Positions 40,363 to 44,946 of a stretch of DNA of 64,000 nt are shown here, piece after piece. The notes beneath the pieces are model-generated. The model was given only the letters and a program-made list of their open reading frames with translations. It searched no databases and was not told the origin of the DNA. The DNA is from an uncultured Cytophagales bacterium. GTDB lineage: Bacteria; Bacteroidota; Bacteroidia; Cytophagales; Thermoflexibacteraceae. Both the position numbers and the translations under genes were made by a program. Position 1 is the stretch's first letter, and every line of letters begins with the position of its first letter. The stretch spans positions 186,001-250,000 of the forward strand of contig CALHUI010000003.1 in assembly GCA_938039675.1 (NCBI GenBank). Direction: 5' to 3'.

Positions 40363-41406
40363 CTATTGCGATGCAAACCGCCGTTCCCACTTCAAGGCAA
40401 CATTGACCAACAGAATCAGCACGGGCACTTCTATCAGCGGCCCAACGACACAGGCAAATGCCTGCCCCGATTGAATGCCGAAAGTAGCTACGGCAACGGC
40501 TATGCCCAGCTCAAAATTGTTGCCCGCTGCCGTAAAAGCCAACGAGGTGCTTTTGGCATAGTCCGCCCCTGCGCGTTTGGCAAGCCAAAAGGCAGTAAAA
40601 AACATGATGACAAAATAAAAAGTCAGCGGAACAGCGATGCGCACTACGTCTAACGGAATATCCACAATCATTTGCCCTTTCAAGCTGAACATAACCAGAA
40701 TCGTAAACAGCAGTGCCACCAGCGTTATTGGGCTGATTTTGGGCAGAAATACCCGCTGATACCATTCTGTGCCTTTGGCGCGTATGAGCAAACGACGAGT
40801 CAGCATACCCGCAAAAAACGGGATGCCGAGATAAATCAGCACGCTCATAGCAATATCGACGATGCTGATATTGACCACCGCACCCGCAAAACCAAACATC
40901 GGCAGCAGCAGCGTAATGAATAAATAGGCATAAACGCTGTAAAAAAGTACCTGAAAAATGCTGTTGAAAGCTACCAGCCCCGCTACATATTCGTTGTCGC
41001 CTTTGGCAAGGTCGTTCCAAACAATCACCATGGCAATGCAGCGAGCAATGCCAATCATAATTAAGCCGATGACATAGTCGGGTTTATCGGGCAGGAAAAT
41101 CACCGCCAGCCCGAACATCAGCAGCGGCCCGATGACCCAGTTTTGCAGCAACGAAAGCCCCAAAATCCGCCTGTTGCGGAATACTTTGGGCAGTTCCTCA
41201 TATTTCACCTTTGCCAACGGCGGATACATCATCAAAATCAGCCCGACGGCAATCGGAATATTGGTTGTTCCTACCTGAAATTGGTTAAGAAAATTTTCGC
41301 TCTGCGGAAAAAAATAACCGATGGCTACACCTGCAAACATGGCAAGGAAAATCCAAGCCGTCAGATAGCGGTCTAAGAATGAGAGTTGTTTTTTTGCTGT
41401 ATTCAT
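40363..41406 (-). CDS. acr3: Arsenite efflux permease, ACR3 family
   Basis: A 347-residue membrane protein with about ten helices (start set at 41406, [15 protein letters not shown]). The diagnostic ACR3 segment [35 protein letters not shown] carries the conserved cysteine needed for As(III) transport. The late [20 protein letters not shown] and [21 protein letters not shown] are typical as well. It pumps arsenite (and perhaps antimonite) out across the inner membrane, using the proton gradient. It is the last gene of the arsR operon, with repeat copies on both sides. Confidence 0.95.
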
Positions 41407-41464
41407 CAAAATCAATATTGACTTGCGAAGAAAATTTACGTAACAAATTGAAATTCAATAGATT

Positions 41465-41509: not shown

Positions 41510-41959
41510 TCAGTTCCCATATTTCAGCACTATAGCCAGCTGCCCTGCGTGATAGGCGGTATGCGACACAATGCGCCCAAGTGCTTCGGCTTTGGTCTTA
41601 GTGCCAAATTCGGGGGTTGCGACGGTGCCTTCCCAATCGGTCGTTGCCTGAATGGCTGCTTGCAATTGCTCAAAAGCTGTTTGCTGATAGGCGAGCAAGT
41701 CGGCAAGATGAGTCCATTCGCCTGTATCACGCTTGTCTATCACCGTGCGCGCAACTACCTGAACGTCAGTTTTTTTAAAAACATTCTTGGCAAAAAGCAA
41801 TTCCACGTCGGCAACGTGGCGAATTAGAAAACCCACGCTGTTGGGGCTTGTACCGAGTTTTTTGTGCAAATCCTGCACGGTAATGGCTTGCAACTGATTG
41901 GAAAAGCGCGTGCGGGCTTCTTGCCATAGCGCGAGATAGTGAGCAGTAGTCATCAGCAT
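41510..41959 (-). CDS. DinB-family four-helix protein
   Basis: A 149-residue protein of the DinB/YfiT-like superfamily. Three histidines that would bind a divalent metal are visible: FLIRHVADVE (about His-48) and SHTAYHAGQLAIV (about His-132 and His-136). Relatives act as thiol-dependent S-transferases with bacillithiol or mycothiol, or have unknown roles. Its place between an ArsC-like phosphatase and acr3 suggests a link to arsenic or thiol chemistry, which is inference. It is separated from acr3 by a palindrome. Confidence 0.8.
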   Translation of the reverse strand: MLMTTAHYLALWQEARTRFSNQLQAITVQDLHKKLGTSPNSVGFLIRHVADVELLFAKNVFKKTDVQVVARTVIDKRDTGEWTHLADLLAYQQTAFEQLQAAIQATTDWEGTVATPEFGTKTKAEALGRIVSHTAYHAGQLAIVLKYGN

Positions 41960-41998: not shown

Positions 41999-42694
41999 TC
42001 AGTTTTTCAGCAAGGCAAATACATAAAACATTTCCCGTGCAATCAGGCGGCAAGTGGCATCATAAGTTGCTGATTCTTCGGGGCTTCCGTCCGATTTTTT
42101 GGGGTCTTCATAGCCGTGATAGATGCGTTCCGATGCACCGCGCACCATTGGGCAGGCTTCGTCGGCTTGTGAGCAGACCAGCACGGCAGCGTAGTCCTTT
42201 TGCGGATTAGAAGCATCGCCATACACTTTGGAAAACAGCTGCAACGGGGCTTGACCTTCGGCAAAAGTGAGTGCGTAAATCGGGTTGGTCGGGCTGATTT
42301 CCCCAGCCTTACTTACCTGAAAACCGGCACGTTGTAAAGCGGCTATGGTGCGTTCGTTGCAGGCGGTAGCTTCCGTTCCGCCCGAAAAAGTTTCCAATTT
42401 TTCGGGAGCAATGCCGTAGTACATGCCCGCCGTTTTTGCCCAAACCTGCCCCAGTTGGCTGCGGCGCGAGTTATGGGTACAAACGAAAGTCAGACGGATG
42501 ATTTCGCCCGCATCAGCTTTGGCTTTCACGTAGGCAGCAATTTTCTGCAAATTTTCTTTACGTTCATCGCTGATTTGGTTGAATTCGGCTTCAATGCCTC
42601 TGCAATACTCTTGCAGCGCAGGCAATAGGTTTTGTGCAGAACCTGACATGATGCTTGTGAGGAATAGTGAGACGGTGAGTAAAACGGTTTTCAT
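41999..42694 (-). CDS. Exported ArsC-like low-molecular-weight phosphatase
   Basis: The start at 42694 (MKTVLLTVSLFLTSIMSGSA) opens a signal peptide that cleaves before QN; an earlier in-frame start overlaps arsR. The mature ~210 residues belong to the thioredoxin-linked ArsC/low-MW tyrosine phosphatase fold: the phosphate loop FVCTHNSRRSQ gives C72-X5-R78, a second cysteine pair is in LVCSQADEACP, and YDATCRLIAREMFY is near the end. Arsenate reductases are normally cytoplasmic, so an exported copy in an arsenic operon is unusual. It starts 7 bp after arsR. Confidence 0.8.
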   Translation of the reverse strand: MKTVLLTVSLFLTSIMSGSAQNLLPALQEYCRGIEAEFNQISDERKENLQKIAAYVKAKADAGEIIRLTFVCTHNSRRSQLGQVWAKTAGMYYGIAPEKLETFSGGTEATACNERTIAALQRAGFQVSKAGEISPTNPIYALTFAEGQAPLQLFSKVYGDASNPQKDYAAVLVCSQADEACPMVRGASERIYHGYEDPKKSDGSPEESATYDATCRLIAREMFYVFALLKN

Positions 42695-42701
42695 GGTAAA
42701 A

Positions 42702-43031
42702 TCAGCAATCGCAGTCAAAAGATGTGGTGGTTTGATTGAAAAAATATTCAAAATATTGTCGGACTTCCTGCCATTTTTCCGTATTGAGGCAGTAATTGAC
42801 GTTCAACCCGCAAATTTCGCCTTTGATAAGCCCGCCCTGTTTGAGTTCCTGCAAATGTTGGCTGACGGTAGAGCGGCTCAACGGCAGTTCTTCGGCAATA
42901 TCGCCCGAAATGCACTGCTTTTTTTCTGCCAACAGGTAGATAATAGCTACCCTCGCAGGGTGCGAGAGTAGCCGTGCGTACTGCGCAATGGTTTGTAAAT
43001 CAGTGGAAAAGTGTTCGGTCTTAGCTTGCAT
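42702..43031 (-). CDS. arsR: ArsR-family transcriptional repressor
   Basis: A 109-residue winged-helix repressor (start ATG 43029-43031). The DNA-binding helix pair is in CISGDIAEELPLSRSTVSQHLQELKQGGLI, after LLSHPARVAIIYLLAEKKQ. Cysteines at the C-terminus (FDCDC, and CGLNVNYC) and in KKQCISG may bind As(III), in place of the classical ELCVCDL motif, which is absent. It heads the operon arsR - arsC-like - dinB - acr3 and is followed after 7 bp by the ArsC-like gene. A strong inverted repeat lies right before its start. Confidence 0.92.
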   Translation of the reverse strand: MQAKTEHFSTDLQTIAQYARLLSHPARVAIIYLLAEKKQCISGDIAEELPLSRSTVSQHLQELKQGGLIKGEICGLNVNYCLNTEKWQEVRQYFEYFFNQTTTSFDCDC

Positions 43032-43095: not shown

Positions 43096-44946
43096 TTAAT
43101 TTTTTACTACTTCGTCGTCGTAAGGAATCACGGTTGTGATGCGGCAGCCATTGCCCGGTGAGGTTTCAATGTGCAGGTTGCCGTTGAGCAGGCGGGCACG
43201 CTGTGCCATATTGGCAAGGCCTTGTCCTCTGCTGACGGTTTCCGGGTCGAAACCTTTGCCGTCGTCTTCAATAATGAGTTCCAACCGGTTGCCTTCGTCG
43301 CGCAGTTCCAAATAGAGGTGGCGTGCTTCGCTGTATTTGAAGGTATTGTTAAAAATCTCTTGGGCAACGCGAAAAATACAGATTTCAATAGCACTTTCGT
43401 AGCGGTTTGTGTCAATAAAAATACGGCGTTCTATTTCAATAGAACTGTTTTGCTCAGTAGTATGGCAGAGAAATTCCAGTGCTTCTGCTAGCCCAAAATC
43501 GTTAAGAACGCTTGGCATCAGGTTGCGTGAGATGCGACGGATTTCCTGTTGTACTTGAACGATTTGGTCAACAATAGATTGTAGGTTTTGCTGTTGCTCA
43601 TTAGGAAGCAGGCTGTTTTTCAGGTAATCGGCTTGCAGGCGCAGTGCGGTCAGTGATTGACCTACGCCATCGTGCAAATCCATTGCGAGCCGCCTGCGTT
43701 CGTCCTCCTGCCCCTGAATGATGGCCAGCGAACGGATGCGCTCCTGTTCGCGTTCCTGTTCGCGAAGTTTTTCTTCTATGCGTCGCTTTTCGGTAACATC
43801 TTCCGATGTAATGAGGATGCCCAAAATTTGCCCGATGCTGTCGCGGAGGGGTACTTTATTGCTTTGCAGCCAAAATTTTTCGCCATGTGAGGTAACAAGA
43901 GGTTCTATTACTGAAGCAAACACTTTTCCGGCCAGCACTTCTGCTATTTGACTGCGTGCCTTGCTTGCCCATTCGGAAGTAATCGGCAGGTCGGCGAAAG
44001 TCATGCCGATAAGGTCGGAGGGCTTTTCAAAGTTCATCGCCTGTGCAAAGTTGCGGTTACAACCTATTATTTCCAGTTCGCGGTTGAGCATATAAATCCA
44101 GCCGGGGATGTTGTCAAAAAGCAGGTCTAAGGTTGTTTTCCACTTGTCGGCCTGTTCTTCGGCTGCAAAATAGGCGGAGATATCCGTTGTTGAAATCAGA
44201 ATATCGGGCAGTTCATCGGGGCGGGAGGTAGGCAGCAATCGCATGGAAAGCTGTAAGGAACGCTGTTTGCCGCCTTGCACACGCTGTTTGACTTCTCCTT
44301 GCCAAAATTTTTTTTGCAGCAAATCTTCGTGTATTTGTTCAATGGGTTGTCCGTATCGGAACTGTGTGGTAATCAAATCTGTCCATTTTTTGCCGATAGC
44401 CTCCAAAGCGCTGATGCCGTACATCTGTGCGGCGGCTTCATTCCAAAATTCTACTACGAACAGCGCATTGGTTACTATAATGGCTTCATTGGTATTTTGC
44501 AGCAGTTGTTGCAGGCGTTGGCTTTGGAATTTATCAGCAGGCAAATCAGGTGATATTTCCTGCATGATTCCTCTGTAAATCAGGGGGTTATAGCTGCTCA
44601 CATGAGCGCGTAGCCCGATGTGCCGCACTTTGCCGTCGGGCAGCAGGATGCGATATTCCAATGCCAGCGGTTGTTGGCGGTTGGTCGCTTCTTTGAGTTT
44701 CTGCATGACCGAAGCTGCATCTTCGGGGTGAATGGTTTTAAAAAAGTAGTTGCCCGGCAAAGAGGCATGAGTAGCAAAAGAAAGCCCGAACAGGCGGTAG
44801 GCTTCCTCTGTCCATCGGATTTTACGTGCCGTAAAATCAATTTCAATGGCGGCAGTACCCGTAAGTACTTGTAAATCCCGCAGTGTTTGCTCGGCGGAGG
44901 CCAATTGCTGTTTCAGGCGAATGATTTCCTGTTCAGGCTGATTCAT
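43096..44946 (-). CDS. PAS-domain sensor histidine kinase, HisKA_3 (NarX/DesK-like) type
   Basis: A 616-residue cytoplasmic kinase. It has an N-terminal coiled coil, three PAS-like domains (about 15-130, 145-265, 275-395, with the PAS-3 style HPEDAASVMQKL and PDGKVRHIGL in the first), then the HisKA_3 dimerisation helix with the phospho-acceptor histidine in RRLAMDLHDGVGQSL. It ends with a HATPase domain (NNTFKYSEARHL N box, EDDGKGFD, and GQGLANMAQRARLLNGNL). No transmembrane segment is present. No response regulator is next to it, so it is an orphan sensor; it lies 64 bp from the arsR operator but reads the same way. Confidence 0.9.
   Translation of the reverse strand: MNQPEQEIIRLKQQLASAEQTLRDLQVLTGTAAIEIDFTARKIRWTEEAYRLFGLSFATHASLPGNYFFKTIHPEDAASVMQKLKEATNRQQPLALEYRILLPDGKVRHIGLRAHVSSYNPLIYRGIMQEISPDLPADKFQSQRLQQLLQNTNEAIIVTNALFVVEFWNEAAAQMYGISALEAIGKKWTDLITTQFRYGQPIEQIHEDLLQKKFWQGEVKQRVQGGKQRSLQLSMRLLPTSRPDELPDILISTTDISAYFAAEEQADKWKTTLDLLFDNIPGWIYMLNRELEIIGCNRNFAQAMNFEKPSDLIGMTFADLPITSEWASKARSQIAEVLAGKVFASVIEPLVTSHGEKFWLQSNKVPLRDSIGQILGILITSEDVTEKRRIEEKLREQEREQERIRSLAIIQGQEDERRRLAMDLHDGVGQSLTALRLQADYLKNSLLPNEQQQNLQSIVDQIVQVQQEIRRISRNLMPSVLNDFGLAEALEFLCHTTEQNSSIEIERRIFIDTNRYESAIEICIFRVAQEIFNNTFKYSEARHLYLELRDEGNRLELIIEDDGKGFDPETVSRGQGLANMAQRARLLNGNLHIETSPGNGCRITTVIPYDDEVVKN

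Follow-up and report, generated by a model that had tools for sequence, protein, structure and literature searches.

The window, that is, the whole stretch of 64,000 nucleotides analysed here, carries on its minus strand an ORF of 231 aa running from ATG to stop (41999-42694) that encodes an ArsC-like protein predicted to be exported. It belongs to an ars operon in which all genes lie on the minus strand in the order arsR, arsC-like gene, DinB-like gene and acr3. The gene for the arsR-type repressor (42702..43031) stops 7 bp before the ATG of the signal, a DinB-superfamily protein is encoded between the reductase gene and acr3 (41510..41959), and the acr3 arsenite efflux permease (40363..41415) matched TIGR00832 with 451.2 bits against a cut-off of 282.8. 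Immediately upstream of arsR, a PAS-domain histidine kinase of the HisKA_3 type is encoded on the same strand (43096-44946). Within the arsC-like gene, codons 1-20 (MKTVLLTVSLFLTSIMSGSA; 42635..42694, minus strand) encode a predicted Sec signal peptide, and an in-frame ATG at codon 16 (42647..42649, minus strand), retained among exported members of the family, is a candidate second start for a cytoplasmic form. Further downstream on this strand lie the catalytic P-loop C72-T-H-N-S-R-R78-S79 (42458..42481), the first relay cysteine C174 (42173..42175), the second relay cysteine C181 (42152..42154) and D197 of the DP loop (42104..42106), the catalytic acid position.

A phmmer search aligned the window protein with ArsC structures at the P-loop and, separately, around the relay cysteines. 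The CX5R loop, described as intact in an earlier note on this DNA, is indeed complete: C72-THNSR-R78, with its Asn and Ser and followed by S79, aligned with ArsC and reads CTHNSRRS where B. subtilis ArsC has CTGNSCRS. C174 and C181 matched the relay cysteine pair of the B. subtilis enzyme in the alignment; the relay cysteines of pI258 ArsC are C82 and C89. D197 likewise aligned with ArsC. In the family described below, C72, R78, C174 and C181 were present in 217/217 classed members, exported or cytoplasmic, and N75, S76, R77, S79 and D197 were replaced by no other residue wherever the alignment held a letter; because the loop pattern was the entry criterion for the set, loop invariance is partly by construction, and the free test of conservation is given by the relay cysteines, R77, S79 and D197 only. 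C31 and C112 occurred together in 12/64 exported and 0/153 cytoplasmic rows (classes before re-labelling), all 12 within the clade of the window protein, and this pair is a lead to a possible structural disulfide special to exported members.

Scores against curated families were low. The NCBIfam models for ArsC (TIGR02691 / PRK13530) gave 45.5 bits against a cut-off of 215 and 44.7 against 174.3, a shortfall that counts against the ArsC reading; PF01451 (LMW protein tyrosine phosphatase) gave 19.6 bits and did not reach its gathering cut-off of 23.2, and a Pfam scan of the window protein found no family at E<=0.001. The AlphaFold2 model, computed from the window protein together with five relatives taken from named records, reached a pLDDT of 87.1 and a pTM of 0.88, with helices at mature residues 5-15 and 23-41 forming a helical segment between the signal and the ArsC core. 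The top four Foldseek matches of the model were arsenate reductases, as were all of the best 13 VIA-align rows (Z 15.2 to 12.6, with 8p5n at 15.2 and 1lju at 14.0), while the best phosphatase, YwlE, scored Z 12.3. The best structural match, D. indicus ArsC2 (8p5n), superimposed with an rmsd of 2.3 over 137 residues, but shares 24% identity and leaves the first 42 residues of the model outside the alignment (range 43-209).

The window protein resembles ArsC of the pI258 / B. subtilis type (TIGR02691, PRK13530; 1lju, 1jl3) in its LMW-PTP fold, CX5R P-loop, two relay cysteines, DP loop and setting in an ars operon, but differs from it in having a signal peptide and, ahead of the core, an additional helical segment at the N-terminus, and it scores far below the curated cut-off. 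On account of the P-loop, the invariant relay cysteines, D197 and the fold matches to arsenate reductases, the predicted protein has the full outfit of a thioredoxin-type ArsC, and we infer that it would reduce arsenate. The earlier note had left the type between arsenate reductase and phosphatase. The first of these stands, and phosphatase activity as the main job is unlikely because the relay cysteines are invariant and solved arsenate reductases are the closest in fold.

The clear signal peptide claimed in the same note was borne out by the sequence. As judged by eye and by a home-made heuristic, Lys2 is followed by the hydrophobic run VLLTVSLFLTSI and a cut at SGSA^Q (MKTVLLTVSLFLTSIMSGSA^Q), so that by this heuristic the segment has the positive charge, the hydrophobic stretch and the small residues near the cleavage site that are expected of a Sec signal. 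The signal was found in all four same-genus genomes among the matches listed, the window's own included. Compared with a relative of 94% identity, 4 of codons 1-20 were changed, all synonymously, with 0 non-synonymous changes. Pooled over six closely related pairs, pN/pS was 0.34 in the part preceding the inner ATG, well below 1 (Fisher P 3e-5), and 0.20 downstream of it. The pooled test ruled out a chance hydrophobic leader, though two of the six pairs individually lacked a purifying pattern (L056/L072 with 0 synonymous and 2 non-synonymous changes, L105/L103 with 1 and 3). The distance from the arsR stop to the signal ATG, measured in 11 of the 13 exported members of the window's clade, was -10, -7, -1, 2, 6, 7, 7, 20, 25, 160 and 166 bp, and thus fell between -10 and +25 bp in 9 of the 11. 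The signal segment therefore looks translated and under protein-level selection. The earlier note held that a translational start downstream of the signal would overturn export. Such a start is unlikely as the sole one, because upstream pN/pS is low and the signal ATG lies close to the arsR stop; as an additional start it may hold, the ATG at codon 16 being strongly retained.

For the wider distribution, the family was found in 120/395 sampled genomes of the phylum and in at least 157/291 genomes of the order, two sets that overlap. From 228 loci, we obtained 220 distinct proteins with the loop after dropping two fragments without it; this sample represents part of the genome matches and leans to the order of the window. 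Homologues in other ars operons, which had been suggested as a check, carry signals too: by the home-made leader heuristic and manual review, 62 of the 220 members were called exported, 154 cytoplasmic and 3 ambiguous, with 1 unclassed. The heuristic itself gave no candidate leader in 141 members, a strongly hydrophobic one in 58 and a borderline one in 18. In control proteins expected to be cytoplasmic, a hydrophobic leader was called within the first 28 residues in 6/154 ArsR ORFs and 3/125 ORFs of another neighbour family, and from a Met within the first 60 residues in 2/154 and 1/125, respectively. The six nearest named records came from Bernardetiaceae, Cytophagales, Microscillaceae and an unplaced Bacteroidetes MAG; five had the signal and the sixth is a fragment without that end. 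Cytoplasmic members share about 35-51% identity and the same motifs with the window protein and are often found near arsR and acr3, but they have no signal, and in most of them the start codon precedes the catalytic Cys by 47-54 codons. Two plasmid-borne members were annotated as protein-tyrosine-phosphatase only, and surveys based on annotation may therefore miss them.

With the signal columns left out, the tree required 15 changes between exported and cytoplasmic labels against a shuffled mean of 55.7, and the starred branches force at least 7 (labels before re-labelling). One group of 60 rows, with an SH-aLRT of 90 and not starred, contained 53 exported and 7 cytoplasmic rows, or 54 exported, 5 cytoplasmic and 1 ambiguous after manual review, and so holds 54 of the 62 exported members with modest support. 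The set of the window itself comprises 14 rows, 13 exported and 1 cytoplasmic, and is starred at 98. Lipoprotein-like forms occur in other parts of the tree, the heuristic having picked out L059 and L083 and inspection by eye L003 and L085, and L106 within the 60-row group is lipoprotein-like by eye. The window gene is thus predicted to encode a thioredoxin-type ArsC that is exported, and it has many putatively exported counterparts in a diverged ArsC family of the phylum. An export signal common to many related bacteria points to arsenate reduction beyond the inner membrane, possibly alongside reduction inside the cell.

An exported ArsC, it had been argued, would imply a different reductant or a different job. 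The former is plausible, with DsbD found beside lipoprotein-like relatives, and the latter is not needed. In three relatives (G045, G577 and G578), a DsbD-like gene starts 6, 9 and 17 bp after the gene for a lipoprotein-like ArsC. Two of these three ArsC proteins were called lipoproteins by eye alone, the heuristic having scored them as Sec. Their DsbD-like neighbours, of 425-448 aa (L003:154-1491 and L059:203-1477 on the minus strand, L085:4616-5959 of G577 on the plus strand), have the DsbD_TM and Thioredoxin_7 domains and so resemble the DsbD / CcdA periplasmic reducing route, but differ from it in having no DsbD_N match and in adjoining an ArsC gene. When the top 4-5 candidates per genome were scored, homologues of this neighbour at E<=1e-45 were found in 2/291 order and 1/395 phylum genomes (overlapping sets), exclusively at the same three loci, and none was found in the plasmids searched at E<=1e-20. 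A trans-membrane thiol route is therefore a plausible source of periplasmic reductant by analogy with these lipoprotein-like relatives. In G045 and G577, however, the DsbD gene is flanked by an exported ArsC on one side and a cytoplasmic one, which begins 10-13 bp further on, on the other, so it might serve either. The ars region of L085 (G577) reads, in series, lipoprotein-like ArsC, DsbD-like, cytoplasmic ArsC, acr3-like, metallophosphatase-like and a second signal-bearing ArsC, and a gene named thioredoxin-reductase-like by resemblance lies immediately upstream.

The neighbour ORFs were searched for homologues of the DsbD-like, thioredoxin-reductase-like, CcdA-like and small thioredoxin-like genes. 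Near exported members, these were confined to the DsbD genes at the three loci above and a single thioredoxin-reductase-like gene (L085). Near cytoplasmic members, there were three of the thioredoxin-reductase-like type, four of the CcdA-like type and four of the small thioredoxin-like type (repeats of the L085 and G045 regions excluded); the CcdA-like genes, named by resemblance, lay within 24 bp in three cases and at 2.2 kb in one. These CcdA-like genes and the position of DsbD beside a cytoplasmic ArsC count against the reading of an exported ArsC fed by DsbD and slightly lowered our confidence in it. TlpA/AhpC-like neighbour ORFs showed no link to export: exported genes had 5 of them nearby and cytoplasmic genes 12.

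The operon in the window contains no DsbD gene, and the DsbD-bearing relatives sit in a different part of the tree. A complete DsbD is encoded elsewhere in the window's genome, together with 16 matches to the AhpC-TSA family, 8 of which look exported and have a CxxC (one of these 8 below the family cut-off). In the same genome, searches for this ArsC family and for PF03960 found neither a second family member nor a PF03960 match at E<=0.01, and the sole LMW phosphatase over the cut-off has, by eye, no relay cysteine pair. No aquaglyceroporin exceeded the cut-off in this genome, where the best match had 17 bits and contained stops, and arsenite made outside may therefore re-enter slowly.

The reading we favour, and consider somewhat more probable than otherwise, is that a thioredoxin-type ArsC is exported by Sec and reduces arsenate in the periplasm with a periplasmic reducing chain as electron donor. 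It draws on what is seen in the sequence: an ORF in an ars operon, with a signal segment under selection, an intact triad and a modelled ArsC fold, together with the DsbD linkage of lipoprotein-like relatives and the DsbD of this genome. In pI258 ArsC, a cysteine of the C72 type attacks arsenate and the relay cysteines shuttle the resulting disulfide. Here, Sec would carry the protein into the periplasm, C72 would attack arsenate, and C174 and C181 would shuttle the disulfide outward in the same way. Electrons would pass from cytoplasmic thioredoxin through DsbD, the putative donor, to a periplasmic thioredoxin-fold domain. Arsenite would then form outside the inner membrane and exit via the outer membrane, and Acr3 would expel whatever is in the cytoplasm. 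Counting against this reading, arsenate already inside the cell would be unprotected by reduction outside, and the exported group, itself modestly supported (SH-aLRT 90), retains 5 apparently cytoplasmic rows among its 60.

As an extension of the favoured reading and compatible with export, one gene may serve two compartments, the signal ATG giving the periplasmic form and some product starting at codon 16 and remaining in the cytoplasm to feed Acr3. We advance this tentatively, as a serious but unproven possibility. The ATG at codon 16 falls where the hydrophobic run ends. It precedes the catalytic Cys by 56 codons and the signal ATG does so by 71, and most cytoplasmic members begin close to the former. 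In 47/62 exported members an in-frame ATG stood 44-62 codons ahead of the catalytic Cys, whereas matched windows of 235 control ORFs with signals predicted 17.7 and 10,000 draws reached at most 34; the 44-62 codon window had been picked after the sequences were inspected. Any start codon was present there in 57/62 against 37.3 expected. All 13 exported members of the window's clade keep the inner ATG even though its distance shifts between 52 and 58 codons. Furthermore, the ATG was rarer where a cytoplasmic copy had been fetched from the same genome (3/8 vs 44/54 without, P 0.016), though the same comparison with any start codon was not significant (6/8 vs 51/54, P 0.12). Adenine at -3 was enriched (27/47 inner ATGs vs 52/152 control Met codons, P 0.006), whereas -12 was marginal (P 0.04) and -6 and -13 were not enriched (P 0.86 and 0.61). 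All P values for the inner ATG are too small because the sequences are related, and the ATG could also be a relic of an ancestral start. PMC6847099 gives A at -3 as a positive determinant of initiation in F. johnsoniae and, in its abstract, says that AUG is under-represented in Bacteroidetes, an idea that its discussion ties to the start region.

In a still wider and rather doubtful picture, the phylum would reduce arsenate on both sides of the inner membrane, by one gene with two starts in many lineages, the window's included, and elsewhere by an outer lipoprotein ArsC with its own DsbD conduit beside a separate cytoplasmic copy.

A working enzyme confined to the cytoplasm, with the inner ATG as main start and the upstream hydrophobic segment little used or non-functional, is unlikely. 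Acr3 pumps from the cytoplasm, and the inner ATG lies near the start site of cytoplasmic relatives, both of which would suit such an enzyme. Nevertheless, the pN/pS of the upstream segment argues for selection on the protein it encodes, 62 members have a hydrophobic leader, the signal ATG of the window closely follows the arsR stop, and a DsbD gene adjoins three lipoprotein-like relatives. PMC9751042 describes ArsC as a cytoplasmic enzyme, in line with a cytoplasmic location.

Still less probable is that the ArsC fold has been preserved in the periplasm for phosphatase or other thiol chemistry while the arsenate job was lost: the CX5R loop, the LMW-PTP fold and the annotation of the two plasmid relatives would fit this reading, but it is disfavoured by the relay cysteine pair in every classed member, missing by eye from the genome's own LMW phosphatase, by arsR and acr3 as gene neighbours, and by the fold ranking, in which the lowest arsenate reductase narrowly outranks the best phosphatase (Z 12.6 vs 12.3).

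The favoured exported ArsC is predicted to be a new form of a known enzyme type, and a literature search, largely without full texts, found no earlier description of one. If true, a lineage of ArsC working beyond the inner membrane would alter current views on the site of arsenate reduction, on its cost through the DsbD route and on the exit of arsenite, and the retained inner ATG would offer a simple, testable case of a single bacterial gene serving two compartments. As to the other neighbours of the arsC-like genes, counts are lower bounds because many loci carry only about 1.5 kb of flank; DinB-like genes, as in the window, were found near 14/220 family loci, and a family of neighbour proteins (155 aa in L064, 157 aa in L083), possibly DUF6428, near 119/220.
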